The position numbers were made by a program, and so were the translations under genes. DNA of 36,222 nucleotides, taken from contig JAFASQ010000152.1 in the NCBI GenBank assembly GCA_019244395.1, positions 1 through 36,222 of the forward strand, given 5' to 3'. This document shows, piece after piece, positions 1,460 to 24,362 of this stretch (its first letter is position 1; each line of letters starts with the position of its first letter). A model generated the notes under the pieces. The model was not told the origin of the DNA and made no database searches. It saw only the letters and a list, made by a program, of their open reading frames with translations. This DNA is from Solirubrobacterales bacterium (lineage in GTDB: Bacteria; Actinomycetota; Thermoleophilia; Solirubrobacterales; Solirubrobacteraceae).

Positions 1460-1481
1460 CTCGCGCCAGGGGAGCCCCTGG
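1460..1481 (-). promoter_or_regulatory. Shared 22-bp upstream element, copy 1 (VOC gene)
   Basis: Reading on the minus strand, the element starts CCAGGGG and ends CTGGCGCGAG. It lies 51 nt upstream of the VOC start codon and points toward it. It is the most divergent copy in the right half (CTGG for CGGG, final G for C) but keeps the fixed 22-nt length. Its left part, CCAGGGGCTCCCCTGG, is also almost palindromic. Function is inferred only from recurrence and position. Confidence 0.5.
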
Positions 1482-1525
1482 TCGGGTGCCTGGTCAGCTG
1501 CGACGGCGAGGGAGCGCTCTGATGG

Positions 1526-3817
1526 TCATGCGACGCCGCGCTCGTGCCGCTGATCGACCCGGTCGGCGAGCGCGATGCGGTAGGCAGCCGCGAGTCGGTC
1601 GAGCGCTGCCTCCCAGCTTCGGCCGCGCACGGCGCTCAGCGCGCCCCGACGAATGCGCTCGGATAGCCGTGGAGTGCTCGTCAACGACACCACGGCGTCT
1701 GCGAGGGCACTGACCCCGGGGGCCGCGAGCAGCCCAGTCTCGCCGTGCTCGATCAGGCAGGCGGGGCCGCCGCGGCCGACGGCGACCACCGGCAGCCCGC
1801 TGGCCTGGGCCTCGAGAATCACCTGGCCGAACGTCTCGGTGGTGCTGGCGAACAGGAAGACGTCTGCGCTGGCGTAGGCCCTAGCCAGGGTGTCGCCCGA
1901 AAGCCAGCCGAGGAACGTCGCCCGGTCGCCAAGGCGCTCGCGAAGGAGGCCCTCCTCCGGACCACCGCCGGCGAGCACCAGGTGCAGGCGAGGGTCCCGG
2001 CAGTGGGCCTCCAGGAAGGCGTCGGCGAGCAGGTCCACGCCCTTCTCCTTGCTCAGACGGCCCGCATACAGGACGCTTACCTCGCCCGGAAGCAGCGCAG
2101 CGTCCCGAAGCCCCGGATCGAATCGGCGAACGTCGACGCCGCGATCCCAGCGGTGGATCCGCTCGGGCTCGATTCCCAGCTCGCCCAGGCGCTGGTCGCT
2201 GGCCGGGCTCGGCGAGAGCACCAACTCGCACGCACGGTAGAACCCGCCCAGTGCCCGGTCGGCCAGCACCCCCACCTGGAGCTGTCCGGTCCGCAGGGCG
2301 GCGTAGGCGCCGAACTCGGTGTGGTAGCTACCGACGCACGGGAGCTCGAGCATCCGGGAGAGGAGCCAGGCCGCGATGCCGGCGGGGCCGGGGGAACACA
2401 CGTGCACGACGTCGTAGCGGCCCTCGGCCAGCGCCTCCACGATGGCGGGAACGGTGGGAACCCCGATCTGGAGCCCAGGGTAGAACGGGATGTCGAGCTC
2501 GGCCACGGCGCTGAGGCGGCGATCGACGTCGGCGTCGGTGCCGATTACCTCCACGTCGAAGCCGCGAACCCCGTGGCCGCGGATCTGTTGGATCGTGTGC
2601 GTGACCCCGTGCATCCCGCCGATGCCGTCCACGACCAGCGCCACACGCGGCCGGTCGCCGTCGCTGTGGGTCAGCTTGTTCTTCTCGCGTCCCAGGAACG
2701 CGGCCGCGACGCCGTAAGGAATGGCCGGCATGCAGGCATCGAACAGTGCGAGGGCGGCGCGGCGGGCATCCGGCGTGCCGCGTTCGAGGCTCCTCACGGT
2801 GCCGTGCACCACGCCGGCCAGCTTGCGCTCGTGGACACGGCGGCCCCGCCGATCGAGATCGGCGTGGGTCAGCTCGCCCTCCTGGAGGTGGTAGAGCAGC
2901 TCGTGCTCGTCGATGTCGAGCTCCATCGAATAGAGCCAAGCGCGCAGCAGGGCGAGCGCATCCCCCGCGGCGAGGTCAGCCCCGCCGCTCCCGTGCCGCA
3001 CATCGCCGTCCCTCATCACGCGTTCGACGATTCGCAGCACGGTCGCGGGATTAACCTGCCCGCCCGTCCCGCCCGCACGGGCGGGCGCGTCGCGCTCCCC
3101 GAGTGAGCGGACGGCCAGCGCCATCGCGGCGTGCGCCCACTTGGCGGCGCTGCCCTGCTGGCCGTGGGCGGAGACTCGTCCCGCCCGTATGTGGGCGAGG
3201 AACTCCGCCGGTGTGTGGGCGCGCGGCGTTTCGGTGAACGTGCGGCCGACATCGATTCCGGCGTGGTCATCGGATCCCCCGATGGCGGTTCCCCCGTGGG
3301 TCTCGATGTATACGAACGCCGGCAGATTCAGTTCCTTGGCGCGCGAGCCGTTCCGGGTCTCCCAGATCGGGAAGAGCTCGGCCAGGCGTCGGCGGTGGCG
3401 CGCGGTGAGCGGCGCGGCCACCGCATAGAACGGGTGGGCGAGCGCGGCGGCGATCTCGTGCTCGTCCAGGTATGCCGCGCACGTCTCGACGTCGTCGCGG
3501 AGGGCTTGGAGGGACTCGTGCTGATCCGGGGTGATGCCATAGCAGAGGACATGCACGGCCTGCGATTCGCCCTTGAAGCCGGCGGTCAGCTCCTCGGAGA
3601 TGAACGTGTCGGGCAGGTGATCGAGCGATAACGCGCCATCGATCGTGTCGTGGTCGGTGATCGTCACGAAGTCCATGCCCCGGGCCTTGGCCAGCTCGTA
3701 GACCTCAAGCGGGTCGGTGGCGCATTCGGGGATGCTCAGCATCCGCTGCACCCCCAACCTGGAGACTGCTGACGCCGACGAATGGACGTGGAGGTCGGCG
3801 CGGCTCGTTTTGTTCAT
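1526..3817 (-). CDS. PHP-domain / GT4 glycosyltransferase fusion protein
   Basis: A 763-residue two-domain protein. The N-terminal PHP metal-dependent phosphoesterase domain has its ligand motifs: H10-x-H12 in LHVHSS, TDHD at 54-57, H89, H128 in LAHPF and SDDH at 182-185. Residues about 240-385 are an alpha-helical linker. From about 390 comes a GT-B fold, family-4-type glycosyltransferase: VDGIGGMHGVTHTIQ, GSYHTEFGAY near 497-505, YAGRLSKEKGVDLL near 584-597, and the nucleotide-sugar site ETFGQVILEAQASGLPVV at 661-678 (E-x7-E). GT4 enzymes of this kind transfer hexoses from nucleotide sugars to lipids or glycans, and the PHP part may hydrolyse a phosphate ester. The ATG at 3817 lacks a strong ribosome site; a TTG seven codons upstream is possible. 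It is divergent from a GH31 gene, which suggests a glycan role. Confidence 0.9.
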   Translation of the reverse strand: MNKTSRADLHVHSSASAVSRLGVQRMLSIPECATDPLEVYELAKARGMDFVTITDHDTIDGALSLDHLPDTFISEELTAGFKGESQAVHVLCYGITPDQHESLQALRDDVETCAAYLDEHEIAAALAHPFYAVAAPLTARHRRRLAELFPIWETRNGSRAKELNLPAFVYIETHGGTAIGGSDDHAGIDVGRTFTETPRAHTPAEFLAHIRAGRVSAHGQQGSAAKWAHAAMALAVRSLGERDAPARAGGTGGQVNPATVLRIVERVMRDGDVRHGSGGADLAAGDALALLRAWLYSMELDIDEHELLYHLQEGELTHADLDRRGRRVHERKLAGVVHGTVRSLERGTPDARRAALALFDACMPAIPYGVAAAFLGREKNKLTHSDGDRPRVALVVDGIGGMHGVTHTIQQIRGHGVRGFDVEVIGTDADVDRRLSAVAELDIPFYPGLQIGVPTVPAIVEALAEGRYDVVHVCSPGPAGIAAWLLSRMLELPCVGSYHTEFGAYAALRTGQLQVGVLADRALGGFYRACELVLSPSPASDQRLGELGIEPERIHRWDRGVDVRRFDPGLRDAALLPGEVSVLYAGRLSKEKGVDLLADAFLEAHCRDPRLHLVLAGGGPEEGLLRERLGDRATFLGWLSGDTLARAYASADVFLFASTTETFGQVILEAQASGLPVVAVGRGGPACLIEHGETGLLAAPGVSALADAVVSLTSTPRLSERIRRGALSAVRGRSWEAALDRLAAAYRIALADRVDQRHERGVA

Positions 3818-7750: not shown

Positions 7751-7777
7751 GGCGGAGGGCCTGGACCCGTACATCGA

Positions 7778-7799
7778 CCAGGGGATCCACGGGGGCGAC
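7778..7799 (+). promoter_or_regulatory. Shared 22-bp upstream element, copy 2 (flavoprotein operon)
   Basis: CCAGGGG, four bases, then ACGGGGGCGAC, preceded by ATCGA as in other copies. It matches the 22-bp consensus except for one G in place of C. It lies 75 nt upstream of the flavoprotein start codon and in the same orientation, in an otherwise non-coding gap. Confidence 0.6.
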
Positions 7800-7874
7800 C
7801 GGTCGCCGCGAGTGGGACGCTGACCATCGGCGGCCCCCAAGCTGCGACGCCACCAGCACGCGACGGAGGTAACG

Positions 7875-9263
7875 ATGAGTTCGAGCCATGACTATGACGT
7901 GATCGTTCTCGGTGGCGGGGCGCCGGGGGAGCATTGCGCGGCGGCGCTGGCCGCGCGTGGCCTGCGCGTCGCCGTGGTTGAGCGGGAGCTTGTCGGGGGT
8001 GAGTGCTCGTATTGGGCGTGTATTCCGTCGAAGTCGCTGCTGCGCCCGGGGGAGGCGGTCCAGAGCGCGCGCGAGGCCGGGGCGCGGGCTGAGGTCGATG
8101 TCCAGGCCGCGCTGGCGTGGCGGGACTTCATGGTGTCGGGGTATTCCGACGCGGGGCAGGAGCGCTGGCTGGCGAGTCGCGGGATCGACCTGCTGCGCGG
8201 CACGGGCCGGCTGGCGGGCACCGGCGTGGTGGAGGTCGACAACGCCCGGCACACCGCGGAGCACGTCGTCGTGGCTACTGGCGCGGACCCGGTTGTGCCC
8301 CCGATTCCCGGGTTGGGTGAGCTGGAGGGGGTTTGGGGCACCCGCGAGGCGACGAGCATGAAGACGGTTCCGCGGCGGTTGCTCGTACTCGGAGGCGGAT
8401 CGGCGGGTGTCGAGCTGGCGCAGGTGGTTCGACGGCTGGGGGGCGAGGCGGTGATCGTGGAGGGCGCCGAGCGGTTGCTTCCTCGCGAGCCCGCGCCGCT
8501 GGGCGAGGCGCTCGGCGAAGCGCTACGACGGGACGGGATCGAGCTGATCCTCGGGATGCACGCCAGCGCGGCTCGGCGTGACGGCAGCGATTACGTCCTG
8601 GAGTTCGACGGTCGCGACGAGTTACGCGGCGACCGGCTGCTGGTGGCCACCGGTCGGCGACCGCGAGTGGAGGGGATCGGCCTGGAGACGGTCGGGGTGG
8701 AGGTTCAGCCCCACGGCATCCGGGTCGACGAGCATCTGCGCGCCGGCGAGCGGCTGTGGGCGATCGGCGACGTCAACGGCATCTGGCCGCTCACCCACGT
8801 CGGCGAGTACGAGGGCGACGTGGTCGCGGCGAACATCGCCGGCGATCCGCACCCGGCCAACTACGAAGCGGTTCCACGCGTCACCTACACCGACCCCCAG
8901 GCCGGGGCCGTGGGCGCGGTCGAGGCGCCCTACAGCGCGACGGCACCCGTGTCCGAGGTGCCGAAGACGGCCACCTACACCCACGCCTACGCCGAGTCCA
9001 ATGGCTTTCTGACGCTTTTGAGTGACGGCGAGCGGCTGACCGGCGCCTACGCGCTCGGCCCGGAGGCCGGCGAGTGGCTACAGCAAGCGACGCTCGCCAT
9101 TCGCGCGCACGTCCCAATCCAGATACTCAGCGACACGATCCAGCCGTTTCCCAGCTTCTCGGGGATCTACGACGCGGCCGTGATGACGCTCCGCATGGAG
9201 ATCATGGACCGGCCGCGGCCCGTCCGGCCGATCGACTCACAAATGGCAAGCCTTTCGGCGTGA
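7875..9263 (+). CDS. FAD-dependent pyridine nucleotide-disulfide oxidoreductase, dihydrolipoamide-dehydrogenase-like
   Basis: A 462-residue class I flavoprotein disulfide reductase. GGAGG precedes the ATG. The FAD-binding site is DVIVLGGGAPGEHCAAAL (8-25). The redox pair is C44 and C49 in GGECSYWACIPSK. The NAD(P)H site is LLVLGGGSAGVELAQVV near 170. The second FAD contact is LWAIGDVNG, and a dimerisation domain follows from about 345. Canonical E3 enzymes carry an HPT-type catalytic His near the C-terminus; here the equivalent stretch is IQPFPSFSGIYDA, without that His. It is therefore unlikely to be a true lipoamide dehydrogenase and more likely reduces another disulfide, quinone or metal, or acts as a transhydrogenase. 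It is transcribed with the SDR-like gene nine bases downstream and preceded by a 22-bp shared element. Confidence 0.92.
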   Translation: MSSSHDYDVIVLGGGAPGEHCAAALAARGLRVAVVERELVGGECSYWACIPSKSLLRPGEAVQSAREAGARAEVDVQAALAWRDFMVSGYSDAGQERWLASRGIDLLRGTGRLAGTGVVEVDNARHTAEHVVVATGADPVVPPIPGLGELEGVWGTREATSMKTVPRRLLVLGGGSAGVELAQVVRRLGGEAVIVEGAERLLPREPAPLGEALGEALRRDGIELILGMHASAARRDGSDYVLEFDGRDELRGDRLLVATGRRPRVEGIGLETVGVEVQPHGIRVDEHLRAGERLWAIGDVNGIWPLTHVGEYEGDVVAANIAGDPHPANYEAVPRVTYTDPQAGAVGAVEAPYSATAPVSEVPKTATYTHAYAESNGFLTLLSDGERLTGAYALGPEAGEWLQQATLAIRAHVPIQILSDTIQPFPSFSGIYDAAVMTLRMEIMDRPRPVRPIDSQMASLSA

Positions 9264-9272
9264 GGAGAAACG

Positions 9273-10031
9273 ATGACCGCCACGACCTCTCCCGTGCCCA
9301 CCCAGCACGAACCGCAGCTCCTTGGCCAAACCGTCGTGCTAATCGGCGGCAGTGCCGGCATCGGCTTGGAGGCCGCCCGACTCGCCCGCGCCGAGGGCGC
9401 CGAGGTCGTCCTCACCGCCCGAAATCCTGAGCGCCTCAAACAGGCGGCGGATGAGGTTGGCGCGCGCAGCACCGCCGCCTTCGACGCGACCGATGCGGCC
9501 GCGCTGAAGCGGTTCTTCGCCGGGCTTCCCGGCGCGATCGACCATGTGCTGGTGACCGGCCCCGGTCCTCGATACGGCCCGCTCCTCGAGATGGACGCCG
9601 CTGAGGTCCGCGAAGTACTGAGCGACCACGTGGTGCTGGGGCTCGAGATCGCAAAGAACGCCGTCGGCAAGCTGAGACCCGGCGGCACGCTCCTGCTCAT
9701 GGGCGGGACGGGCGGCCGGCGGATCACTCGCGGCCTCGGGATCGCCTCGGCTGCGACCGCCGCGCTGCCCCCGTTCGTAGCCGCGCTCGCGCTCGAGCTC
9801 GCGCCTGTTCGGGTCAACCTCATCGCGGCCGGTTTCGTCGACACCCCGCTCTCCGCGGCGCTCCTCGGCGATGACCTCGAAGCCCGCCGCGAAGAACTGC
9901 GAGCGACGCTGCCGATCGGGCGCGTGGTCGGCCCGGCCGACGTGGCGGCACTGGCGGTTCACATCATGACGAACACCGCGCTCACCGGGGCGACCTACGA
10001 CATCGACGGCGGGCAGCAGTTCGTGGGCTGA
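9273..10031 (+). CDS. SDR-family protein lacking the YxxxK catalytic motif
   Basis: A 252-residue Rossmann protein starting nine bases after the flavoprotein stop, with GAGGAGA before the ATG, so the two are co-transcribed. The nucleotide-binding loop GGSAGIG is at 25-31 and VVLTARNPERL follows, with the Arg pattern favouring NADP(H). The C-terminus is typical of the SDR family (LELAPVRVNLIAAGFVDTPL, ending TYDIDGGQQF). Where classical SDRs have Ser and Tyr-x3-Lys, this protein reads LLLMGGTGGRRITRGLGIAS, then AATAALPPFVAALALEL, with neither Tyr nor Lys. An atypical SDR branch with this loss exists. It may be a non-classical reductase or a nucleotide-binding partner of the flavoprotein. Confidence 0.9.
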   Translation: MTATTSPVPTQHEPQLLGQTVVLIGGSAGIGLEAARLARAEGAEVVLTARNPERLKQAADEVGARSTAAFDATDAAALKRFFAGLPGAIDHVLVTGPGPRYGPLLEMDAAEVREVLSDHVVLGLEIAKNAVGKLRPGGTLLLMGGTGGRRITRGLGIASAATAALPPFVAALALELAPVRVNLIAAGFVDTPLSAALLGDDLEARREELRATLPIGRVVGPADVAALAVHIMTNTALTGATYDIDGGQQFVG

Positions 10032-13236: not shown

Positions 13237-13375
13237 TCTGGTGCCCTGGCCTGCCTCATCCTGGCGCCATCGGGGCGGGGTAGGGTTGCTGCGCTGAGAA
13301 CGAGGAGGGGGAATGGATCCTCTCGCAGGCGAAGACTCAACGCGACGTACCTAACCGCGTGCACCAGTGCTGTGA

Positions 13376-13397
13376 CCAGGGTCGCCACGGGCGCGAC
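13376..13397 (+). promoter_or_regulatory. Shared 22-bp upstream element, copy 4 (small conserved gene at 13427)
   Basis: CCAGGGT, four bases, then ACGGGCGCGAC, a near-perfect copy. It ends 29 nt before the proposed ATG at 13427, closer than the other copies. This suggests either a short leader or a start codon further downstream than chosen. Confidence 0.55.
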
Positions 13398-13426
13398 CCT
13401 GCCGCGCACGCATCAGCCTTGTGCCC

Positions 13427-15585: not shown

Positions 15586-17316
15586 TCAGTAGGGATATGC
15601 GGGGATGACGTCGGCCTTCTTCGCATCGAGTCGCAGCTCGCCTGGGGCGCCCGCAGGCACGAGCGGACGGTGCGGCATGACCGGGTCAACGCGCTCATAG
15701 CCAGAGCCCAACGGCGGCCTGGTGTCCGGGTCTCCCTGGTTGGGCCAGAGTGACATCGCGCGCTCGGCCAGGGCGGTGATCATCAGCGACGGGTTCACGC
15801 CCGGGTTGGCCGGCATGACACTCCCGTCGATGACGTGAAGGCCCGGCTGGCCGAACATGCGCAGGTAGGGGTCGACAGCACCGGTTTCGACGCTGTCGCC
15901 GATTGGGATCCCACCGATGAAGTGGGCAGACGCGTTGCGGTTGATGACCTCGAACAGCACCGCCCCCTGGCGGCTTCCCATCTTCTCCGCCACCCGATCG
16001 ACGAAGTCCTCGATGGCTGGGATGTGCACCGACGGGGGCGTTCCAGAAGGTCGGCTGCGCAGCAGCCCGTCGTGCCAGTACAACTCGATCGAGGTGTCGG
16101 TCGTCTGCGAACACAGCGCGATGAAGCTCCGCTCGGACCAGTGGCGAGGGTCGCTAAAGCTGAGCACTTGGCCGGGGTGCCCGACCAGTTCCTTCAGCCA
16201 GGAGGTGGTCGCGTGCTTCTGCTCGCCGTGCTGGTGGTAGGTGACAAGGAAGGCAAACACGTCGCTTCCCACCCCCCAGATGGTCGGCTCGATGCTCGTC
16301 ACCGGATCCGGCCACACACCCGAGGTGATCGACACAGAGCCCGGTGTCAGGCGGATCTTCTCCGGATCGCGCTCCCACTCCCCGTGCGTCCGGGTGACCG
16401 CGAGCAGCTGTTCGGAGTTCGTCCGCGCTCGCTGCCCAAGCTCGCCAGACAGGCCCGTCAGGCCACCCGTGTGCTGCATGTGATGAAGCAGCTTCGCTGA
16501 CCCATACGCGTGGGCGGAGACGATCACCTGCTCGGCGGTGTACGCGCGGTGGTGCAGATGTGGCGCACGCTGCGCCCAGCCAGGATGCCGCGCATGCACC
16601 TCAAATCCGCGTCCATCGAGCGGGGCAAGCTCGTACACCTCCTGCAGCTCGTGGATCTCGACGCCGAGCTTCTCCGCCAAGTACAGGTAGTTCGTCGTCA
16701 GCTTGTTCTTGGCGTTGTGGCCACAGCCGATGTTGCAGTTGCCGCATGAGATGCACCCGGTACGGCGCGGCCCAACCCCGCCGAAATACGGATCCTCGGC
16801 CTCGACGCCCGGAGTACCGAAATACACGCCCACCGGGGCCTTGTTGAACGTTTCCCCGCGCCCCATCTCGAGCGCGACCTGCTGCAGGACGCGATCCACG
16901 TCGGTAGGCATGTACGGATACCGAACGACACCGAGCATCCGCGTTGCCTGATCGATACACGGCGCCAACTCATCTGCCCAATCGGTAATCCTCGCCCACT
17001 CCGGCGCATCGAAGAACTGCTTCGGAGGGACATACAACGTGTTGGCATACACGTGCGATCCGCCGCCGACGCCTGCGCCAGAAAGAACCAGCACGTCGTC
17101 GAGAGGCTCGATCCTCTGGATCCCGTACAGCTCAGCAGCAGGCATCCATATGAAGTGCGGCAGGTCCCATTGCGTCTTCGGGATGTCTTCATCCTTCCAC
17201 CGTCTGCCGGACTCCACGACCCCCACCCGATACCCCTTCTCCGCGGCACGGAGCGCGGCGACGCTTCCACCGAAGCCGGAGCCGATGATCAGTACGTCGT
17301 AGTCGAAACTCGTCAT
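15586..17316 (-). CDS. GMC-family FAD oxidoreductase (cholesterol-oxidase/dehydrogenase-like)
   Basis: A 576-residue flavoprotein. The ATG at 17316 follows GAGGAGG; the upstream extension is rejected. The FAD-binding dinucleotide fold is DYDVLIIGSGFGGSVAALRA (5-24). GAGVGGGSHVYANTLYVPP is at 80-98, and the C-terminal FAD/active-site region includes NASAHFIGGIPIGDS and VIDGSVMPANPGVNPSLMIT, ending ALAERAMSLW. Residues 188-198 hold four cysteines, C188-x2-C191-x2-C194-x3-C198, followed by HNAKNKL. This motif occurs in the cholesterol-oxidase-like GMC branch and resembles an Fe-S ligand set. The likely reaction is oxidation of a secondary alcohol on a steroid-like or other hydrophobic substrate. 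With a Rieske-like gene next, electrons may pass to a ferredoxin rather than to oxygen. A 22-bp element lies 45 nt upstream. Confidence 0.92.
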   Translation of the reverse strand: MTSFDYDVLIIGSGFGGSVAALRAAEKGYRVGVVESGRRWKDEDIPKTQWDLPHFIWMPAAELYGIQRIEPLDDVLVLSGAGVGGGSHVYANTLYVPPKQFFDAPEWARITDWADELAPCIDQATRMLGVVRYPYMPTDVDRVLQQVALEMGRGETFNKAPVGVYFGTPGVEAEDPYFGGVGPRRTGCISCGNCNIGCGHNAKNKLTTNYLYLAEKLGVEIHELQEVYELAPLDGRGFEVHARHPGWAQRAPHLHHRAYTAEQVIVSAHAYGSAKLLHHMQHTGGLTGLSGELGQRARTNSEQLLAVTRTHGEWERDPEKIRLTPGSVSITSGVWPDPVTSIEPTIWGVGSDVFAFLVTYHQHGEQKHATTSWLKELVGHPGQVLSFSDPRHWSERSFIALCSQTTDTSIELYWHDGLLRSRPSGTPPSVHIPAIEDFVDRVAEKMGSRQGAVLFEVINRNASAHFIGGIPIGDSVETGAVDPYLRMFGQPGLHVIDGSVMPANPGVNPSLMITALAERAMSLWPNQGDPDTRPPLGSGYERVDPVMPHRPLVPAGAPGELRLDAKKADVIPAYPY

Positions 17317-17361
17317 GTTGCGGTCCTCCTCTCGTGTGCACAGTCGCGGTTCGCGCGGCGG

Positions 17362-17383
17362 TTCGCGCCCGTGGGGCCCCGGG
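17362..17383 (-). promoter_or_regulatory. Shared 22-bp upstream element, copy 5 (GMC operon)
   Basis: On the minus strand it reads CCCGGGG, four bases, then ACGGGCGCGAA, matching the consensus at nearly every strongly conserved position. It ends 45 nt before the GMC start codon. Copy 6 lies 84 bp away on the plus strand, facing the divergent short-SDR gene, so each gene of the divergent pair has its own element. Confidence 0.5.
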
Positions 17384-17466
17384 CTTGTGCGGCGCGTCGA
17401 CCCAGTGGAACGCCCTGAGCGTTTTGGGTTGACCCGGGGATGCACTGGGCCGACTCCCGGGACACG

Positions 17467-17488
17467 CCGGTGCTCCACGGGGCGCGAC
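17467..17488 (+). promoter_or_regulatory. Shared 22-bp upstream element, copy 6 (short SDR gene)
   Basis: CCGGTGC, then TCCACGGGGCGCGAC, matching the consensus apart from one extra G in the right block, which shifts its left edge by one base, and substitutions in the left block. It ends 49 nt before the GTG at 17538 and points toward it. It is the weakest of the left-block matches. Confidence 0.4.
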
Positions 17489-17537
17489 GGATTGCCGGAC
17501 GCGCGATCGTGAAGGCGATCCGAAGCCCGAATCTGAG

Positions 17538-18065
17538 GTGGATACGACGGTGGGGATGGAGACCAACGGCTGCGGCGGTCCGAGCGCGAGAGTGCTCCGT
17601 CGAGAGGCGGTGGCGATTGTCACAGGCGGCTCGGTTCGAGCCGGCCGCGAGATCGCCCGCGGACTGGCCAGCTGGGGTTGGGCGGTCGTGGTGGTCTACC
17701 TTGAGCAGCAGCGCACCATCGAAGTGACCGTCGCGGAGATCCTCGCCGCGGGCGGGAAGATCGTCGCTGTCCGCGCCGATCTCGCCGACGACCTCGACGT
17801 CCAGCGGCTGTTCGCCGAGTCGAGCGCCGCGTTCGGAGGCGTCGACGTGGTCGTCCACACCACGACGGATAGCCCCTCCTTCCTGTATCACCACGCGGCG
17901 CGGCACGTCCGTCGACGAGGCGCGATCATCACCGTCGCCCCCAGCGACGGCGTGAGGCCTGGCGTCGCACGCCAGTTGCGCGAGCGCGGCATCATCGTCG
18001 GCAGGGCCTCGCCGGAAGAGCCGCTCTCGTTCCTGGACAGGTGGGGACACCAAGTTCCTCGCTGA
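17538..18065 (+). CDS. Short SDR-like Rossmann protein without catalytic residues
   Basis: The frame encodes 175 residues from a GTG, or 169 from an ATG at 17556. The N-terminal half is clearly SDR: REAVAIVTGGSVRAGREIAR, then VVVVYLEQQRTIEVTVAEIL, then IVAVRADLADDLDVQRLFAE and FGGVDVVVH. The usual NNAG is replaced by TTTDSP, and the Ser/Tyr/Lys catalytic block is missing. The C-terminal part (RRGAIITVAPSDGVRPGV, RQLRERGIIVGRAS, FLDRW) is SDR-like but shortened. Classical SDRs have about 250 residues. The absence of stops and the presence of an upstream 22-bp element favour a maintained compact protein, perhaps nucleotide-binding only, over a pseudogene, but decay after an internal deletion cannot be excluded. 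Confidence 0.7.
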   Translation: MDTTVGMETNGCGGPSARVLRREAVAIVTGGSVRAGREIARGLASWGWAVVVVYLEQQRTIEVTVAEILAAGGKIVAVRADLADDLDVQRLFAESSAAFGGVDVVVHTTTDSPSFLYHHAARHVRRRGAIITVAPSDGVRPGVARQLRERGIIVGRASPEEPLSFLDRWGHQVPR

Positions 18066-18098: not shown

Positions 18099-20861
18099 AT
18101 GCCTAGCACCCGGGGGTTCGGTTTCTTCGGCCGGACAAGCGAGCGCGAACGCCTCGACGCCCTGCTCGCTCAGGCGCGCGACGGCCAGAGCGGCGTCTTA
18201 GTCATCCGCGGCGAGCCAGGCATCGGAAAGACCGCGCTGCTGCGGTACGCTGCGCGGCAGGCCTCCGGCTTGCGCGTCATCGAGGTCGAAGGCGTCCAGG
18301 CGGAGATGGAGCTGCCGTTCGCGGGGATTCACAGGTTGTGCGCGCCGATGCTCGGTCGGCTCGACGTCCTCGCGCCGCCGCAGCAGCACGCGCTCCGAGT
18401 CGCTCTGGGCGTCTCATCGGGCGATGCCCCGGACATGTTCCTGATCGCCGTCGCCGTGCTCAATCTGCTTTCCGCCCGCGCGGCGGAGCGCCCGCTCCTG
18501 TGCCTGGTGGATGACGCTCAGTGGCTTGACACCGTCTCGGTGCGGGCGCTCGGGTTCGTGGCGCGGCGGCTGCATGCCGACCCAGTGGCGATGGTCTTCT
18601 CGCTGCGTGAGCCTTCCACCACCGGAGCGCTCGACGACCTGCCCCAGCTTTCGCTCCAAGGGCTCGATGAGCACGATGCGCGCGCCCTCCTGTCGAGAGC
18701 CGTTCCGGGTCGGCTCGACGACCACGTTCGCGACCGGATCATCGCCGAGACGTGGGGCAATCCGCTGGCGCTGGTGGAGCTCGCGCAGACCATGACCGTG
18801 TCAGAGAGAGCCGGAGGTTTTGCCCCACCGACGGCGAGCGACCTTCCGAGTCGGCTCGAGGAACGGTACCTGGGGCGCATCACCGGTTTGCCCGAGGGGA
18901 CGCAGCGGCTCATTCTGCTGGCGGCAGCGGAGCCACTGGGGGACGCCGCGTTGCTGTGGCGGGCGGCCGAGCGAGTCTCCACCGACCCGGGCGCGCTGGC
19001 TCCCGCCACGGAAGCCGGGCTGCTGGTGATCGACGACCGCGTTCGCTTCCACCACCCGCTGGTGCGCTCAGCCGCGTATAGAGCCGCGTCACTCGACGAA
19101 AGGCGGCGCGTACACGCGGCGCTGGCCGATGTCAGCGACCCCGAGCTGGCCGCCGACCGCCGCGCCTGGCACCGCGCACTCGCGGCTGCCGAACCGGACG
19201 AAGCCGTGGCTGGTGAACTGGAACGGTGCGCAGGACGAGCGCAGAGCCGCGGCGGCCTCGCGGCCGCAGCGGCACTCCTCGAGCGCGCGAGCGCCATGAC
19301 CCCGGACCCGTCCCTCCAGGCGAGACGCGCACTCGCCGCGGCGGAGGCGAGCTTCCAGGCCGGCGGCTTCGACGCGGCGCAGCGGCTCCTGGCCATGGCA
19401 GAAAGCGGCCCGCTCGACGGCTTCGCGCGCGCGCGAGCCACGCTCCTACGAGGACACGCTGCCGTGGTCTTCGCCTACGGCAATGAGGGAGCCCCGCTGC
19501 TCCTCGAAGCTGCGAGACAGCTCGAGCCGTTCGACCTCAGCCTGGCTCGCCGGGCCTATCTAACCGCGTGGAGCGCCGCCATCACTGCGCACCATCTCGG
19601 CGGAAGGGGCGTCCTGTTCGAGGTCTCGCGCTCCGTGCGCGCGCTCCCACCGCTGCCCCCGAACCCGCATCCACTCGATCTGGTAATCGAAGGGTTCGCC
19701 CTGTTGATCACCGACGGACACGCGGCGGCCATGCCCATCCTCCAACGTGCAGCCAAAGAAGTCATGCAATTGCCGGTGCCGGACGTCTTGCGGTGGGGTT
19801 GGCAGGTTGGCGGCGTGAGGTCCGCGATATGGGACGACGAAGCGATCGCGGTGTATGAGCGACAGGCCCAGCTCGTCCGCGACGCAGGCGCGCTAGCAGA
19901 GCTGCCGATCCACCTCCAGGCCCTAGCGTTGGAACGAGCGTGGCGGGGCGACCTGTCGGGCGCGCGAGGGCTCATCGCCGAATCCGAAAGCATCTCGACA
20001 TCGACGGGGAATCAGGTCCCGCCGTTCGCGCTGCTCCGAATCCTGGCCCTGCAAGGGCGGGAAGCCGAGGCGGCCCGCTTGATCGAGGATGTGATTCAGG
20101 AGGGCACGGAACGAGGGCAGGGAATCGCGGTGATGGTCGCGTACTGGGCCGCCGCGGTGCTCAATAATGGTCTTGGACGCTACGGGGAGGCGGCAGCGGC
20201 GGCAGGACAAGTCGTCACGAACGGCATCCTTCCCTGGCTATCGATGTGGGCACTGTCCGAGCTGATTGAGGCCTCCGCACGCGTCGGTGACAAGAACGCC
20301 GCGCGGGATGCATTGGACGAGCTCGCGGCGACGACACAGCCGGCTCGCGGCGGATTCGCGCTCGGCATCGAGGCGCGTTGTCGGGCGCTTCTCGCCGATG
20401 GCGCCGGTGCCGAAGGGTCGTATCGCGAAGCGATCAAGCAGCTGGGTCGAGCCGGAATTCGTACCGAGCTCGCCCGCGCGCATCTGGTCTTCGGCGAATG
20501 GCTGCGCCGCGAGGGCCGTCTGGGCGAGGCGCGCGAACGGCTGCGGGCGGCCGAGGAGATGTTCACCGAGATCGGCATGGCGGGGTTCGCGCAGCGCGCC
20601 GAAGGCGAGCTGATCGCCGCCGGTGCGAAGCCTCGCATACGCCCCGTCGAGGCCCAGGAGGACCTCACGCCGCAGGAGGAGCAAATCGCCCGGCTCGCCC
20701 GCGACGGCCTCACCAACGCGCAGATCGGCGCCCAGTTGTTCCTCAGTTCGCGCACGGTCGAATGGCACCTGCACAAGGTCTTCGGCAAGCTCGGGGTCGA
20801 CTCGCGCAGCGGCCTCCACGGCGCCCTGCCGCGACGGGAGCAGGAGGCCGCACACCTGTAG
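18099..20861 (+). CDS. Large AAA ATPase / LuxR-family transcriptional regulator (paralog 1)
   Basis: A 920-residue regulator of the LAL/MalT-like type. An N-terminal ATPase domain has Walker A GEPGIGKT at 38-45 and Walker B LLCLVDDAQWLD at 133-144. A helical, TPR-like central region spans about 350-840 (RALAAAEASFQAGGFDAAQR and similar). A C-terminal LuxR HTH lies at about 853-915 (LTPQEEQIARLARDGLTNAQ, then LFLSSRTVEWHLHKVFGKLG). Such proteins are ATP-dependent activators responding to a ligand sensed by the helical domain. The AAGGAG just before the ATG leaves almost no spacing, so the real start could differ slightly. It is strongly similar to the gene at 21448-24216. Its end overlaps no gene; the convergent SRPBCC gene ends five bases away. 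Confidence 0.95.
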   Translation: MPSTRGFGFFGRTSERERLDALLAQARDGQSGVLVIRGEPGIGKTALLRYAARQASGLRVIEVEGVQAEMELPFAGIHRLCAPMLGRLDVLAPPQQHALRVALGVSSGDAPDMFLIAVAVLNLLSARAAERPLLCLVDDAQWLDTVSVRALGFVARRLHADPVAMVFSLREPSTTGALDDLPQLSLQGLDEHDARALLSRAVPGRLDDHVRDRIIAETWGNPLALVELAQTMTVSERAGGFAPPTASDLPSRLEERYLGRITGLPEGTQRLILLAAAEPLGDAALLWRAAERVSTDPGALAPATEAGLLVIDDRVRFHHPLVRSAAYRAASLDERRRVHAALADVSDPELAADRRAWHRALAAAEPDEAVAGELERCAGRAQSRGGLAAAAALLERASAMTPDPSLQARRALAAAEASFQAGGFDAAQRLLAMAESGPLDGFARARATLLRGHAAVVFAYGNEGAPLLLEAARQLEPFDLSLARRAYLTAWSAAITAHHLGGRGVLFEVSRSVRALPPLPPNPHPLDLVIEGFALLITDGHAAAMPILQRAAKEVMQLPVPDVLRWGWQVGGVRSAIWDDEAIAVYERQAQLVRDAGALAELPIHLQALALERAWRGDLSGARGLIAESESISTSTGNQVPPFALLRILALQGREAEAARLIEDVIQEGTERGQGIAVMVAYWAAAVLNNGLGRYGEAAAAAGQVVTNGILPWLSMWALSELIEASARVGDKNAARDALDELAATTQPARGGFALGIEARCRALLADGAGAEGSYREAIKQLGRAGIRTELARAHLVFGEWLRREGRLGEARERLRAAEEMFTEIGMAGFAQRAEGELIAAGAKPRIRPVEAQEDLTPQEEQIARLARDGLTNAQIGAQLFLSSRTVEWHLHKVFGKLGVDSRSGLHGALPRREQEAAHL

Positions 20862-20865
20862 GGAT

Positions 20866-21330
20866 CTACGCGTGCTCGGCGGCGGCCTTCGTGTTGCGCG
20901 CCTCGACCGCCTTGACGGAGTTCACGAACGCCTTCGCCAGGACGCGCTTGCCCACCGTGCCGAGCACGACGCCGAGGAACCGACCCTTGAGGTTCTTCCC
21001 TTCGCGGACGACGACGTAGTCGATCGCGGTCGTCCCGTCGGGCCGTCGTGTGAACGAGTAGGTGTGGCCGGAGTGGCCGCCCCATGTGTTGGAGTCGGTG
21101 GTCGTCGCGACGACCCGGTCGGGATCGGACCAGTCGTAGTCCAGGCGCTCCCAGACGCCACCCGAGCCCTCGGTGACATCTGCGTGGTGGGCGCTCTCGG
21201 AATGCACCTTGAGGTCCTCGTCGGAGCTATTGCCGAACAGCTTCGAGCGGCCCGGCCCGAAGTCCGTGAGCCCGGCGATGTACTGCTCGGGCGTCGCCGT
21301 GGTCGTCTGGCTGAAGTGGATCGTGGACAT
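20866..21330 (-). CDS. SRPBCC-family (START/Bet v1-like) protein
   Basis: A 154-residue protein. GAGGGAGC precedes the ATG at 21330. It follows the SRPBCC pattern: MSTIHFSQTTTATPEQYIAG, then TDFGPGRSKLFGNSSDEDLK, then GGVWERLDYDWSDPDRVVAT and HSGHTYSFTRRPDGTTAIDY. A C-terminal amphipathic helix (FLGVVLGTVGKRVLAKAF) closes the hydrophobic cavity. These proteins bind lipophilic ligands or act as cyclases/aromatases; no catalytic set is recognised. It sits between two paralogous LuxR ATPase genes, convergent with the first and divergent from the second, so it is a natural candidate target. A 22-bp element lies 56 nt upstream. Confidence 0.88.
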   Translation of the reverse strand: MSTIHFSQTTTATPEQYIAGLTDFGPGRSKLFGNSSDEDLKVHSESAHHADVTEGSGGVWERLDYDWSDPDRVVATTTDSNTWGGHSGHTYSFTRRPDGTTAIDYVVVREGKNLKGRFLGVVLGTVGKRVLAKAFVNSVKAVEARNTKAAAEHA

Positions 21331-21386
21331 GTGTGCTCCCTCGCTCGGGGTGTGCTGGCATGCCAAAATCGCCGATCCGCCATCCG

Positions 21387-21408
21387 GTCGCGCCCGTAAT
21401 CCCCCTGG
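21387..21408 (-). promoter_or_regulatory. Shared 22-bp upstream element, copy 7 (SRPBCC gene)
   Basis: On the minus strand it reads CCAGGGG, four bases, then ACGGGCGCGAC, a perfect match to both conserved blocks, preceded by GTCGA as in copy 8. It ends 56 nt before the SRPBCC start codon, the same distance as for the MBL gene. It also lies 39 nt upstream of the divergent regulator gene, in the opposite orientation. Confidence 0.65.
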
Positions 21409-21447
21409 TCGACGCACGGCACGTCGCCGGGCGGTTAGCGTTGAACC

Positions 21448-24216
21448 ATGTCCGCCATCCCGGGGCCGGCGTTCGTGGGTCGGGCCACCGAGCGCGATGT
21501 GCTCGATGGACTGCTGGCGAAGGTACGCGGGGCCGAGAGCGCCGTCCTGGTTATCCACGGCGAGGCGGGCATCGGCAAGAGCGCGCTGCTGCGCTACGCC
21601 GCCCGGCAGGCATCCGGATTCCGGGTCGCGGAAGTCAGCGGAGTGGAGGCGGAGATGGAGTTGCCGTTCGCGGGGATCCATCAGCTCTGCGCGACGATGC
21701 TCGACCGGCTCGACGCACTCCCGGCCCCGCAGCGGGACGCCCTGGGCGTCGCGCTGGGACTGGCAGCCGGGGAGGTGCCGGAGCGGTTCCTGGTTGGGCT
21801 GGCCGTGCTCAGCCTCCTGGCAGCCGTGGCGGAGGAGCGCCCGCTGCTGTGTCTCGTGGAGGACGCGCAATGGCTGGACGGCGCCTCAAGTCAGATCCTC
21901 GGCCTCGTCGCACGACGGGTGCGCGCGGAGTCGGTGGCGATCGTCGTCGCGGTGCGCGAGCCGGCCGCGGAGCACAACTTCCGCGGCCTGCCCGAGCTGC
22001 GCCTCGAAGGGCTGCCGGAGCCGGATGCCCGCACGCTACTGCGCGGCGTGGTGACCGGCCGCCTCGACGGCCGCGTTCGTGACCGGCTGGTCGCCGAGTC
22101 CGGGGGGAACCCGCTTGCCCTGCTGGAGCTCCCGGGGCGCATGACCGCTGCCGAGCTGGCCGGCGGCTTCGAGTTTCCTGCCGCCGGCGAGCTTCCGGCG
22201 CACATCGAGGACCACTACCTCGAGCACGTCGGCGAGTTGCCCGAGGCGACGCAGCGCTTCATGCTGCTCGCGGCCGCCGAGCCCTTGGGTGACGCGGCGC
22301 TGGTTCTGCGCGCGGGCCGAACGCTCGGCATCGAGACCGTCGCGCTCGCGCCTGCCGAGGCTGCGGGACTGTTGGAGATCGGCGCCCGCGTCCGCTTCCG
22401 CCATCCCCTTGTGCGCTCGGCGGTCTACCGCGCGGCGCCAATCGACAGCCGACAGCGCGTGCACGAAGCGCTGGCCGAGGTGAGCGATCCGGATTCCGAC
22501 GCCGATCGCCGCACCTGGCACCGGGCCCTGGCGGCAAGAGGGCCCGACGAGGACGTAGCCTTCGAGCTCGAGCGGTCGGCCGGCCGGGCGCAGGCTCGCG
22601 GTGGCGCCGCCGCCATGGCGGCGTTCCTGGATCGCGCCGTCGCGTTGACCCCGGACCCGGCGCGTCGGCGAGAACGTGCGCTCGCGGCCGCTCAAGCCAG
22701 TCTCGCAGCTGGCGCGCTCCCCGCGGCTCGAGGCCTGCTGGCGATGGCGGGCGCCGGGCCGCTCGAGGAGCACCAGCGCGCGCAAATCGACCTGGTGCGG
22801 GCCCAGCTCGCCTTCGTCTCCAGCCGAGGCACCGACGCGACCCCGCTCCTGCTTGCTGCCGCCCGCCGCCTCGAACCGCTGGACATCTCCGTTGCCCGGG
22901 AGACGTACGTGGACGCGTTCTCCGCGGCGATGTTCGGGGCCAGGCTCAACGGCGCCGTCGGGATGGCCGAGGTCGCGGAGGCCGCGCGGGCCGCGCCGCG
23001 CCCGGCAGGTGCCGAGCCGACCACCGCCGACGGGCTGTTGGATGCGCTCGTTGCACTCGCCGACGACTACGGCAGCGCGATCCCTCGCTGCCGCGAGGCG
23101 GTGCAGCGGCTCTCTGGCGAGAAGGCTTCGGCGAAAGAACGACTGCGCTGGTTGTGGCAGGGTTGCGTCGTCGCTCTCGAGATCTGGGACGATGAACATG
23201 CGGGCTCGCTCTCGCAGTCGAGCGTCGAGATCGCCCGCGAGACCGGGACGCTCAGCGAGCTCGCGCTCGCGCTGAGCGCGCGTGCACCGATCCTCGTCTT
23301 CTGTGGCGACCTCGTCGCCGCAGCCGCGGCGGTTTCCGAGACAGAGTCGGTCGAGGAGGCGACGGGCATCCGGGCCGCCCCGTACGGCGCATTGATCCTC
23401 TGGGCGTGGCGAGGCAGGCCGCCCGAGACGACAGAGCTCATCGAGAGGACGGGTCGCGAGGCGGAGGCTCGTGGCGAGGGCATCGGGCTGGCCATCAGTG
23501 CGTACGCACGCGCGGTGCTTTGCAACGGGCTCGGTCGCTACGAGGAGGCCCTGGCCGCCGCCGTCACCGCCAGCGAGCACCGAGAGGTCGTGGGCGAGAA
23601 CTGGGGGCTGAGCGAGCTGATCGAGCCGGCGACGCGTTGCGGAAGGATCGATATCGCGACCGACGCTATGAACCGATTGGTAGTCAAGACCCAGGCCGCG
23701 CGAACCGACTGGGCGCTCGGCATCGAGGCGCGTGCCCGGGCCCTCCTCGCCCAAGGCGGCGACGCCGAGCGCTGGTTTCGCACGGCGATCGAGCGTTTCG
23801 GTCGAACTCGCGTGCGCGCCGAGCTCGCCCGCACGCACCTACTGTATGGCGAACGCCTGCGGCGCGAGGGGCGCCGGGTCGCTGCTCGCGCCGAGCTCAA
23901 CATCGCGCACGAGCTGTTCACGTCGATGGGGATGGACGCGTTCGCCGACCGCGCCGGCGGCGAGCTCCTTGCAACGGGTGAACGAGCACGCCGCCGAACC
24001 GCCACGACGCGCGACGATCTCACCGCGCAGGAGCGCCAGATCGCCCAGCTCGCCCGCGATGGGCTCACGAACGCGGAAATCGGTGCTCGCCTGTTCCTCA
24101 GTCGACGCACCGTCGAATGGCACCTGCGCCACGTGTTCTCCAAGCTCGACATCCAGTCCCGACGCCAACTGGCAAGCGCCCTGGAAACCTCCGATTCCGG
24201 AGGCCCGGCCGCGTAG
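21448..24216 (+). CDS. Large AAA ATPase / LuxR-family transcriptional regulator (paralog 2)
   Basis: A 922-residue paralog of the regulator at 18099-20861, with the same domain order. Walker A GEAGIGKS is at 38-45 and Walker B LLCLVEDAQWLD near 134-145. A long helical-repeat region follows, and the C-terminal LuxR HTH reads LTAQERQIAQLARDGLTNAE then LFLSRRTVEWHLRHVFSKLD. Both paralogs share the segment EMELPFAGIH near residues 70-78, pointing to tandem duplication followed by divergence, with the helical sensor region having changed most. The ATG at 21448 has no clear Shine-Dalgarno. It is divergent from the SRPBCC gene, and the 117-nt spacer contains the SRPBCC-oriented 22-bp element. Confidence 0.95.
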   Translation: MSAIPGPAFVGRATERDVLDGLLAKVRGAESAVLVIHGEAGIGKSALLRYAARQASGFRVAEVSGVEAEMELPFAGIHQLCATMLDRLDALPAPQRDALGVALGLAAGEVPERFLVGLAVLSLLAAVAEERPLLCLVEDAQWLDGASSQILGLVARRVRAESVAIVVAVREPAAEHNFRGLPELRLEGLPEPDARTLLRGVVTGRLDGRVRDRLVAESGGNPLALLELPGRMTAAELAGGFEFPAAGELPAHIEDHYLEHVGELPEATQRFMLLAAAEPLGDAALVLRAGRTLGIETVALAPAEAAGLLEIGARVRFRHPLVRSAVYRAAPIDSRQRVHEALAEVSDPDSDADRRTWHRALAARGPDEDVAFELERSAGRAQARGGAAAMAAFLDRAVALTPDPARRRERALAAAQASLAAGALPAARGLLAMAGAGPLEEHQRAQIDLVRAQLAFVSSRGTDATPLLLAAARRLEPLDISVARETYVDAFSAAMFGARLNGAVGMAEVAEAARAAPRPAGAEPTTADGLLDALVALADDYGSAIPRCREAVQRLSGEKASAKERLRWLWQGCVVALEIWDDEHAGSLSQSSVEIARETGTLSELALALSARAPILVFCGDLVAAAAAVSETESVEEATGIRAAPYGALILWAWRGRPPETTELIERTGREAEARGEGIGLAISAYARAVLCNGLGRYEEALAAAVTASEHREVVGENWGLSELIEPATRCGRIDIATDAMNRLVVKTQAARTDWALGIEARARALLAQGGDAERWFRTAIERFGRTRVRAELARTHLLYGERLRREGRRVAARAELNIAHELFTSMGMDAFADRAGGELLATGERARRRTATTRDDLTAQERQIAQLARDGLTNAEIGARLFLSRRTVEWHLRHVFSKLDIQSRRQLASALETSDSGGPAA

Positions 24217-24340
24217 CTGAAGGGCCGTGAAGGGACCGCCTCAAGGCCAGGGTGGGGCGACTGCTTCGCCTCGACGACCGGCATTGGATACGGTCGCCGA
24301 CGTGGTTCGCGAGACCGACGCAAGCAGACCCGGGAGTCGA

Positions 24341-24362
24341 CCAGGGGATACGCGGGCGCGAC
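24341..24362 (+). promoter_or_regulatory. Shared 22-bp upstream element, copy 8 (phosphoribosyltransferase gene)
   Basis: CCAGGGG, four bases, then GCGGGCGCGAC, with GTCGA just before. Only one base of the two conserved blocks differs from the consensus. It ends 57 nt before the phosphoribosyltransferase ATG, in the same orientation, in a 203-nt gap with no gene. Confidence 0.6.

Follow-up and report, generated by a model that had tools for sequence, protein, structure and literature searches.

The window, a stretch of 36,222 nucleotides of Solirubrobacterales DNA, encodes two large regulators on the forward strand, LAL1 (18099..20861) and LAL2 (21448..24216), which we regard as candidate activators. 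The proteins, 920 and 922 residues long, carry an N-terminal ATPase domain (AAA_16, PF13191; E 6.8e-19 in LAL1 and 3.8e-17 in LAL2) and a C-terminal GerE/LuxR helix-turn-helix (HTH; PF00196; 5.8e-13 and 8e-15), which is the LAL (MalT-like) architecture, and the recognition helix reads TVEWHL in both. Eight copies of a 22-letter element lie in the same window, all at the coordinates and on the strands reported in the initial annotation, which had also described every copy as noncoding and aimed at the next gene; none of the eight overlaps a placed gene, and all are indeed directed at the gene that follows. The 22-mer is a portion of a larger promoter element, referred to here as an array. Its order is CCNGGG, 6 nt, CCAGGG, 3-5 nt, CACGGG, GCGA at the -35 position, 17 nt, and a -10 of the form NANNNT. 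The third repeat 12 nt upstream of the box and the fixed -10 had previously been overlooked; a -10 of this type is present at all eight window sites.

Array 1 (1438..1493, minus strand) comprises a box at 1460-1481, the third repeat CCAGGC at 1488-1493 and the -10 GAAGCT at 1438-1443, and its presumed target is a VOC/glyoxalase-fold gene (728..1408, minus; PF00903, 1.2e-10). Array 2 (7766..7821, plus), with its box at 7778-7799, third repeat CCCGTA at 7766-7771 and -10 GACGCT at 7816-7821, precedes a presumed target operon (7875..10031) of a flavoprotein disulphide reductase-like gene (7875-9263, plus; PF07992, 2.1e-52) and an SDR gene (9273-10031, plus; PF13561, 1.6e-28). Arrays 3 and 4 are divergent. 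In array 3 (13193..13248, minus; box 13215-13236, -10 GAATGT at 13193-13198) the upper repeat is out of register by one base, and a metallo-beta-lactamase-fold gene lies downstream (12256-13158, minus; PF00753, 4e-18). Array 4 (13364..13419, plus; box 13376-13397, third repeat CCAGTG at 13364-13369, -10 CAGCCT at 13414-13419) has as its presumed target a small membrane-type DUF1440 protein (13427..13951, plus; PF07274, 4.9e-09 on 13421-13951). The predicted +1 of this array, at about 13426, falls at the ATG at 13427, so that the transcript may be leaderless.

Near the regulators, array 5 (17340..17395, minus; box 17362-17383, -10 GACTGT at 17340-17345, third repeat not clear) faces its presumed target, a GMC flavo-oxidoreductase gene (15586..17316, minus; PF05199, 1.2e-14) that resembles cholesterol oxidase (NF058674, 436.8 bits, below the curated cut-off of 850). 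The divergent and irregular array 6 (17455..17510, plus; box 17467-17488, -10 GATCGT at 17505-17510) precedes a short SDR gene (17538..18065, plus; PF00106, 8.6e-12), which ends 33 nt before LAL1; the array is presumed to serve the short SDR, and perhaps also LAL1 behind it. Array 7 (21365..21420, minus; box 21387-21408, third repeat GCCGTG at 21415-21420, -10 GATTTT at 21365-21370) has a gene for a small protein (20866..21330, minus) as its presumed target. The earlier SRPBCC label for this protein was not borne out, as no Pfam or NCBIfam family matched at E 0.001. Array 8 (24329..24384, plus; box 24341-24362, third repeat CCCGGG at 24329-24334, -10 CAATCT at 24379-24384) is followed by its presumed target, a phosphoribosyltransferase-fold gene (24420..25235, plus; PF00156, 2.3e-14). 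To the right of 24.4 kb no noncoding site was found, as had been stated.

Counts and controls confirmed the 22-letter repeat as genuine. When up to 3 mismatches were allowed, the window contained 8 matches to the pattern, compared with an average of 0.38 and a maximum of 3 over 100 dinucleotide shuffles. Seven of the eight annotated sites fit the pattern at this threshold, and the eighth match, at 8597 within the flavoprotein gene, was treated as chance. The remaining site, 17467(+), reads CACGGGGCGCGAC and has more than 3 mismatches to the pattern; its -10 is correctly placed, and the case for this divergent site, which fits the promoter geometry, rests on that geometry. A second box at 17433(+), found by the matrix, has no -10 where one would be expected and was left out of the promoter count. 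The box-to-start distances of the initial annotation agree with the start-codon caller in 6 of 8 cases and differ for the short SDR (49 nt versus 61 nt) and the DUF1440 gene (29 nt versus 113 nt). The start codon of the latter is uncertain, and two gene calls chose later starts, one at an in-frame ATG 84 nt downstream and another still later. We prefer the annotated start because that ATG coincides with the predicted start site.

The geometry of the element was examined across loci. Column counts of aligned sites gave CCNGGG / CCAGGG / CACGGGCGCGA; the spaced half-sites and the -10 are conserved and the intervening bases are not. Among noncoding matches found with the box alone, the -10 was at the exact place in 44 of 61 and one base further in 8 of 61, compared with 1 and 3 of 54 coding matches. 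For noncoding matches outside the matrix training set, the -10 was at the fixed place in 31 of 48. A subset of 52 of the 61 noncoding matrix matches was chosen by hand, also for the nhmmer model described below, and the nine that were dropped include one (L037, 128) whose score of 16.0 exceeds that of some retained sites, which is why the -10 figures are also given for all 61. In the hand-picked subset, 41 sites had the -10 at the fixed offset (next best offset 8), and 21 had the third repeat CCNGG at offset 12 (next best offset 6). When 11 of 18 strict matches were re-examined, the -10 was present in 6/6 noncoding and 0/5 coding matches. Over 1.0 Mb of loci, the own-genome box matrix yielded 65 noncoding matches versus 9 in reversed sequence, a count that includes the training sites and 4 double-counted matches (L029 is the same as L109). 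An nhmmer model of the box plus 26 nt gave 84 matches at a score of at least 12, of which 78 were noncoding, versus 0 in reversed sequence; these 84 include seeds and overlapping loci, and 71 distinct noncoding sites were obtained at score 11.

The check on orientation and distance that the initial annotation had proposed was run at the sampled loci: of the 61 noncoding sites, 39 have a called start codon ahead of them in the same orientation at 20-130 nt, and 10 have one equally far behind on the other strand. Single weak whole-genome matches are near background (74 versus 68 at 3 mismatches). The best start codon followed the box at a median of 59.5 nt (56 of 71 boxes), in a range bounded by the search, which covered 25-170 nt after the box. 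Relative to the starts predicted from the -10, the repeats lie at the -35 region, as in LAL targets. The families encoded behind the boxes, for which 51 of 56 downstream proteins were scanned and five doubtful calls omitted, include alpha/beta and epoxide hydrolases, flavoproteins, VOC, GMC, MBL and SDR proteins and suggest that small organic molecules are turned over or detoxified. No maltose (mal) families were present among 25 of the 52 families, those listed for the 51 proteins.

The element is not confined to the window. Copies that had been overlooked lie elsewhere in this genome, on contigs C95, C467, C249, C329 and C175, and in some of these copies the middle gap is 3 or 5. In the whole own genome, the gap-4 pattern with GA in front matched 11 times at up to 2 mismatches (6 in the 36-kb window, 2 on C95, 1 on C467, and 2 elsewhere that were not counted as sites) and 39 times at up to 3 mismatches, versus 20 for the reversed pattern. 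Across 61 relatives there was no overall excess of the fixed-gap pattern at 2 mismatches (63 versus 72 reversed); an excess was found in the own genome (8 versus 1) and G023 (5 versus 0). The strict pattern matched the genomes of the class 18 times, 5 of them in coding sequence, against 7 in the reversed control.

Some relatives of the window LALs, in Thermoleophilia, in Rhodococcus opacus and in a Streptomyces, also have the element beside them. Of 349 class genomes, 10 had the strict box, 21 the LAL clade and 5 both (Fisher p 1e-4); restricted to the 6 genomes with noncoding boxes, LAL was present in 4 (p 1.4e-4). Two genomes with boxes, G060 (3 boxes, 84% complete) and G359 (1 box, 70% complete), had no LAL match at 1e-150. 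In held-out LAL-clade loci, 9 noncoding sites were found at score 15 in 5 of 20 loci, versus 0 of 20 distant-LAL loci; the comparison gave 11 sites in 6 loci versus 2 in 2 at score 13, and 15 sites in 8 loci versus 4 in 4 at score 11. On plasmid pRop44186_a (745 kb) of R. opacus DSM 44186, the three sites with up to 2 mismatches, at 10664-10687(-), 11060-11083(+) and 16302-16325(+), flank the LAL gene FXW36_RS00315, all within 1.5 kb. At the strict threshold, 15 of the 20 held-out loci were without a box, and only 3 of 12 Actinomycetes loci scored clearly above reversed sequence, suggesting that many clade LALs use other sites or none that are recognisable. Neither pR1CP1 nor the Streptomyces plasmid had a match to the gap-5 pattern with 3 mismatches beside its LAL. 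The contigs C95, C467 and C249 of the own genome carry boxes but no clade LAL, which requires the assumption that the regulator acts in trans.

The middle gap (3, 4 or 5) is mostly uniform within a locus and varies among loci of one genome. Among the scored sites of the own genome, which leave out the irregular site 17467, the gap is 4 on C507, C95 and C467, 3 on C249 and C329, and 5 on C175. Same-contig pairs shared the gap in 50 of 57 cases versus 31.2 expected, and none of 20,000 permutations was as high; four sites had been re-registered via the upper repeat (two of L118, L122 4700 and L165 8316), L117 3433, G052:C57 and L178 dropped, and contigs that may adjoin in the genome counted as separate. 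Without re-registration, 50 of 58 pairs agreed versus 33.3 expected (0 of 20,000 permutations). The gap did not agree with the LAL tree, in which L032 (gap 5) is near L064 (gap 4). We tentatively consider, as a possible but doubtful reading, that paralogous LAL systems of one genome may use the same half-sites and be told apart by the 3-, 4- or 5-nt gap between the middle and promoter-proximal repeats, a spacing-coded insulation.

Two box types, CACGGGCGCGA and CCCTGATGCGA, enter the question of Trp versus Tyr in the recognition helix. The Trp-type box was found at 16 of 27 Trp-type LAL loci versus 4 of 33 Tyr-only loci (Fisher p 2e-4; nhmmer score at least 11, seeds included), a count that omits 4 loci in which neither residue occurs as well as four duplicates. 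On the tree, the association was not significant: over 200 pairings, an average of 2.2 of 5 pairs were concordant and 0.0 contrary (one contrary pair in a few pairings), a result that cannot reach significance. A sister box, with 13 noncoding matches at a score of at least 12 (5 seeds included) and 0 in reversed sequence, was found mainly near LALs with Tyr replacing Trp. It was present in 8 of 35 Tyr-LAL loci versus 1 of 25 Trp-only loci (p 0.067, or 0.016 without L122, the Trp-only locus with a sister box, which carries a truncated second LAL); these counts were tallied by hand and do not include the Tyr-type L139. If the gap reading is true, gap and helix difference would together form a two-part recognition code in a family of regulators that is large and little studied.

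The initial annotation had proposed a promoter or activator box, perhaps for one of the local LuxR ATPases or for an alternative sigma factor. The former is favoured by the fixed -10, by the three direct repeats and by the presence of this box next to relatives of the LALs, and the element is probably the operator-promoter of a local regulon, bound and activated by the window LALs. The element, its repeats, the -10 with its spacing, the statistics and the LAL association are direct readings of the DNA. From them we infer that an inducer, the class of which belongs to the inference, would activate the two window LALs (STAND-type ATPase plus GerE HTH, as in MalT). The activated LALs would assemble on the direct half-sites CCNGGG, CCAGGG and CACGGG, beginning at about -62, -50 and -40 from the predicted start, and may then recruit RNA polymerase with an ordinary sigma factor to a promoter core of GCGCGA at the -35 position, 17 nt, and a -10 keeping mainly A(-11) and T(-7). 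The recurrence of a ready-made promoter beside one type of large ATP-using regulator in several soil actinobacteria suggests that it is probably the docking array of that regulator, through which scattered detoxification and catabolism genes may be switched on jointly.

Several regulator families use direct repeats spaced by about one helical turn, and the element could be the operator of another activator often linked to LALs (e.g. OmpR-like, SARP-like or AraC-like), as the boxes without a clade LAL match in G060 and G359 would permit. We regard this as unlikely, since the two LALs are the only regulators recognised near boxes among the scanned window ORFs, the AraC and TetR genes of the window lie right of 28 kb where there are no boxes, the R. 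opacus LAL is between boxes (although the genes listed for that stretch also include a helix-turn-helix gene and a kinase), and no box was found at distant-LAL loci under the strict threshold. DNA binding by SARP-LALs is carried out by the SARP domain, and a SARP regulon was rejected as Pfam recognised no families other than AAA and GerE in the two window regulators. A MalT regulon proper was rejected as well, the MalT box GGGGA(T/G)GAGG not being matched by the column counts. It is very unlikely that the LALs are repressors whose array, spanning about -62 to -30 and overlapping the -35, blocks RNA polymerase: the MalT precedents are activators, and a search of the interval from 12 to 25 kb found no TTGACA/TATAAT-like pair, which suggests promoters needing help.

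A promoter of an alternative, ECF-type sigma factor, with GCGCGA as -35, NANNNT as -10 and merely decorative upstream repeats, would account for the strongly conserved GCGA and its near-constant 17-nt spacing to the -10. We consider it highly improbable. The -10 is an ordinary NANNNT that retains mainly A(-11) and T(-7), the hallmark of sigma-70, and conservation extends beyond -35 and -10 to two more repeats upstream, at 12-nt and variable 9-11-nt offsets. Furthermore, the pRop44186_a sites flank a LAL gene, and the incomplete gene table of this plasmid stretch lists no sigma factor gene. That many copies within one region reflect chance or a mobile repeat family has a negligible probability, given the shuffle and reversed controls, the coding/noncoding contrast of the -10, the variable bases between the conserved half-sites and -10, and the many families of downstream genes.

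Activation by the window LALs remains our preferred reading, and it can be placed among known systems. The LAL regulators have been called a poorly studied family (PMC3282765), and the window box was not described in the titles or abstract openings of the literature matches listed. For part of one LAL clade, a searchable operator with exact promoter geometry is now available, and since the box spans uncultured Thermoleophilia and the culturable Rhodococcus opacus, targets, inducer and binding are testable. Because the gap is for the most part constant within each locus and the box comes in two types, the reading of direct-repeat arrays by STAND activators can be studied as a natural experiment.

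SARP-LALs such as PimR share the LAL half and heptameric direct repeats upstream of promoters (PMC5930380, PMC3367932), but differ in their box and in an N-terminal SARP domain that is absent from the window LALs by Pfam. TpdR of the PTTMP system of Rhodococcus jostii TMP1 is likewise an actinobacterial LAL with two direct repeats, at -79 to -65 and -51 to -37, ahead of a catabolic operon, although its 15-nt repeat TnnAAnnGCGGAnTC, spaced 13 nt, is unlike the window element in sequence and period (PMC6099782). MalT of E. coli and Klebsiella, which binds cooperatively as multimers and recruits RNA polymerase, shares the STAND ATPase, the C-terminal HTH, direct repeats and a site at -35 (PMC7567727, PMC6099782, PMC4381067), whereas its box differs from that of the window. 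In the maltose region of Actinoplanes sp. SE50/110, one of two MalT-like LuxR regulators was shown to be the main activator, and a shared box overlaps the -35 at 17 start sites, its 3' end 34.4 nt from the start (PMC7567727). This box is inverted (TCATCC-5nt-GGATGA) whereas the window element has three direct repeats and GCGA, and the Actinoplanes region is maltose-dependent. Two MalT-like LuxR regulators, a shared -35 box and scattered metabolic genes are nevertheless common to both.

The initial annotation had placed eight copies of a 22-bp box at 1460-1481(-), 7778-7799(+), 13215-13236(-), 13376-13397(+), 17362-17383(-), 17467-17488(+), 21387-21408(-) and 24341-24362(+), and all eight coordinates were confirmed in the sequence. 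Each site is intergenic and directed at the next gene. Seven of them lie within 3 mismatches of the pattern, the eighth, at 17467, being divergent from it; one additional match falls inside a coding region. Dinucleotide-shuffled controls for the window gave a mean of 0.38 and a maximum of 3 matches at this threshold. The stretch at 28608-35419, which carries an AraC with cupin, two TetR genes, an ABC transporter pair and two SDR genes, is without boxes and looks like a separate block.

The element is almost certainly a promoter. A box-only matrix, trained on sites of the same genome and applied to 76 fetched loci, found 61 distinct noncoding and 54 coding matches. A fixed A and T stand 29 and 33 nt past the first base of the lower repeat, CACGGG, forming a NANNNT hexamer that we read as the -10. 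It was at this exact place in 44 of the 61 noncoding matches and 1 of the 54 coding ones (one base further, 8/61 and 3/54), and in 31 of 48 noncoding matches outside the matrix training. Among 52 hand-picked noncoding sites, 41 had the -10 (next best offset, 8), and the upper repeat CCNGGG, 12 nt upstream of the middle repeat CCAGGG, occurred as CCNGG in 21 (next best offset, 6). Since the -10 begins 17 nt after GCGCGA, the latter would occupy the -35 position. All eight window sites have the hexamer (GAAGCT, GACGCT, GAATGT, CAGCCT, GACTGT, GATCGT, GATTTT and CAATCT).

Column counts come from a larger collection of 71 sites, detected by a model in which the -10 region was itself included: C57 C55 N G59 G49 G53 for the upper repeat, 71, 54, 55, 68, 63 and 65 for CCAGGG, 57, 55, 70, 58, 70 and 65 for CACGGG, 68, 69, 68 and 70 for the GCGA behind it, and A61 and T60 for the -10. 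In one fetched locus (L178, 8798-8830) the CCAGGG array merges into a palindromic stretch (CCAGGGAGTCCCTGG) in place of the usual right block. Because the predicted start of the 13376 promoter falls on an ATG, the DUF1440 membrane protein gene behind it may begin at its own predicted transcription start and yield a leaderless mRNA (window 13364-13427); the gene caller chose later start codons.

SIGNIFICANCE: the same matrix scan with one duplicate locus, 1,000,399 bases in all, gave 121 matches, 65 of them noncoding, compared with 43 and 9 in reversed sequence; these totals contain the training sites, and four sites enter them twice. An nhmmer model of the box plus 26 nt gave 84 matches at a score of at least 12, 78 of them noncoding, and none in reversed sequence; the 84 include 52 seeds and some overlapping loci, and 71 distinct noncoding sites remain at a score of at least 11. 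As to orientation, in the fetched loci a called start codon lay 20-130 nt ahead of 39 of 61 boxes, versus 10 of 61 with one behind on the other strand. A gene start followed 56 of the 71 boxes at 25-170 nt (median 59.5, 10-90% range 51-122).

The genes behind the boxes suggest turnover of small organic compounds. Among 51 downstream proteins, counted over 25 of 52 families listed, were alpha/beta hydrolase folds (11), Pyr_redox_2 (7), epoxide hydrolase N-termini (6), VOC (6), GMC (3), carboxylesterases (2) and others. The GMC protein of the window is cholesterol oxidase-like, under the curated cut-off. In genome G023, two contigs (L109, 14336-18011; L110, 6219-9914) each hold two divergently oriented genes with a box pair in between, and the product lengths, 576 and 538 aa, are the same on both; the 538-aa product in L110 is a carboxylesterase.

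Two LAL regulators (AAA ATPase plus GerE/LuxR HTH, MalT-like) sit among the box genes of the window: LAL1 (18099-20861(+)) and LAL2 (21448-24216(+)), whose nearest named relative, at 78% identity, is from the Solirubrobacterales MAG CP_BM_RX_R9_18. LAL1 lies 33 nt after the short SDR gene, so the array at 17467(+) may make LAL1 autoregulated. Judged from sequence, the array most likely belongs to this regulator clade, with the LAL as its probable binder. Held-out loci of clade relatives, from genomes unused for the matrix (n = 20), had 9 noncoding sites in 5 loci at score 15, versus none in 20 distant-LAL loci; the figures were 11 sites in 6 loci versus 2 in 2 at score 13, and 15 in 8 versus 4 in 4 at score 11. 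A survey of 349 class genomes detected the strict box in 10 (18 matches, compared with 7 for the reversed pattern), the LAL clade in 21 and both in 5 (Fisher, 1e-4), and a LAL was found in 4 of the 6 genomes with noncoding strict boxes (p = 1.4e-4). Re-examination of 11 of the 18 matches placed the -10 in all 6 noncoding and none of 5 intragenic ones; in the other 7 it was in place in five and one base further in two on G060:C175. The exceptions, genomes with good boxes and no match to a clade LAL, are G060 (L137, L151; 84% complete) and G359 (L144; 70% complete), where the gene may be missing or a different regulator at work.

The clearest named case is plasmid pRop44186_a (Rhodococcus opacus DSM 44186, 745 kb). 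Its three sites of at most 2 mismatches all stand no more than 1.5 kb from the gene for a LAL 49% identical to LAL2. Two face nearby FAD-oxidoreductase and hypothetical genes, and the next listed gene after the third is about 310 nt off; at 3 mismatches there are 4 matches versus 3 for the reversed pattern. With nhmmer, boxes adjoining a LAL scored 17.4 on pR1CP1 and 19.1 on a Streptomyces plasmid (reversed best, 8.2), weak boxes (9.2-10.7) were found in Nonomuraea, Kribbella (L030) and Jiangella, and the other six of 12 Actinomycetes loci had nothing above 8.2. By eye, the hexamer is one base further (spacer 18) in six of seven Rhodococcus, Streptomyces, Nonomuraea and Kribbella boxes, the exception being L030; L031 is outside the seven. 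Because pattern sums over 61 relatives gave no excess over the reversed pattern, and the gap-5 pattern at 3 mismatches had no match adjoining the LAL on pR1CP1 or on the Streptomyces plasmid, our confidence in the LAL reading was lowered slightly and is still good.

The gap between middle and lower repeats is 3, 4 or 5 nt. In the 5.69-Mb assembly of which the window is part, the gap-4 pattern at up to 2 mismatches gave 11 matches, six in the window, two on contig C95, one on C467 and two not counted as sites. Contigs C249 and C329 yield extra sites once the blocks stand one base closer, and C175 has a site with one base more, adjoining a LAL fragment; scored sites have gap 4 on C507 (the window), C95 and C467, gap 3 on C249 and C329, and gap 5 on C175. 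C249, with four gap-3 boxes, also carries an IS110-type transposase (L012, 1798-2961). Same-contig pairs shared their gap in 50 of 57 cases versus 31.2 expected (without re-registration, 50 of 58 versus 33.3), and in both counts 0 of 20,000 within-genome permutations was as high. A like split occurs in G010 (C65 gap 5 versus C180 gap 3, one site re-registered). G001:C281 is not pure, its sites having gap 5 close to the LAL and gap 4 at a greater distance; gaps are also mixed in G060:C175, G023:C93 and G002:C295. That gap length is a spacing code seems rather unlikely to us.

The recognition helix of the LALs has either Trp (TVEWHL) or Tyr (TVEYHL) at a position that aligns inside the HTH of solved GerE domains; the matching NarL residue contacts bases. 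The box was present in 16 of 27 loci with a Trp-type LAL versus 4 of 33 Tyr-only loci. A sister box, CTAGGG-N6-CTAGGG-N3/4-CCCTGAYGCGA, had 13 noncoding matches at score 12 (reversed, 0) and was present at 8 of the 35 loci that have a Tyr LAL, versus 1 of the 25 that are Trp-only (p = 0.067). The LAL tree requires at least 5 Trp/Tyr changes on well-supported branches, with too few independent pairs for a significant association. On C329 (L123, 10610-16265), tandem Tyr-type and Trp-type LAL genes have both box types around them, at 8107, 16544 and 16690, and would form a natural two-channel system within the same genome.

By its -10 geometry and repeats, what the initial annotation likened to a dedicated promoter or activator box is a real, well-defined operator-promoter array. 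In the open-access full-text literature, the box appeared in no title or abstract start among the matches listed. Among described systems, the closest is a maltose-regulated region in Actinoplanes, which has two MalT-like regulators and in which 17 boxes overlap the -35; the box sequence there differs from ours (PMC7567727).
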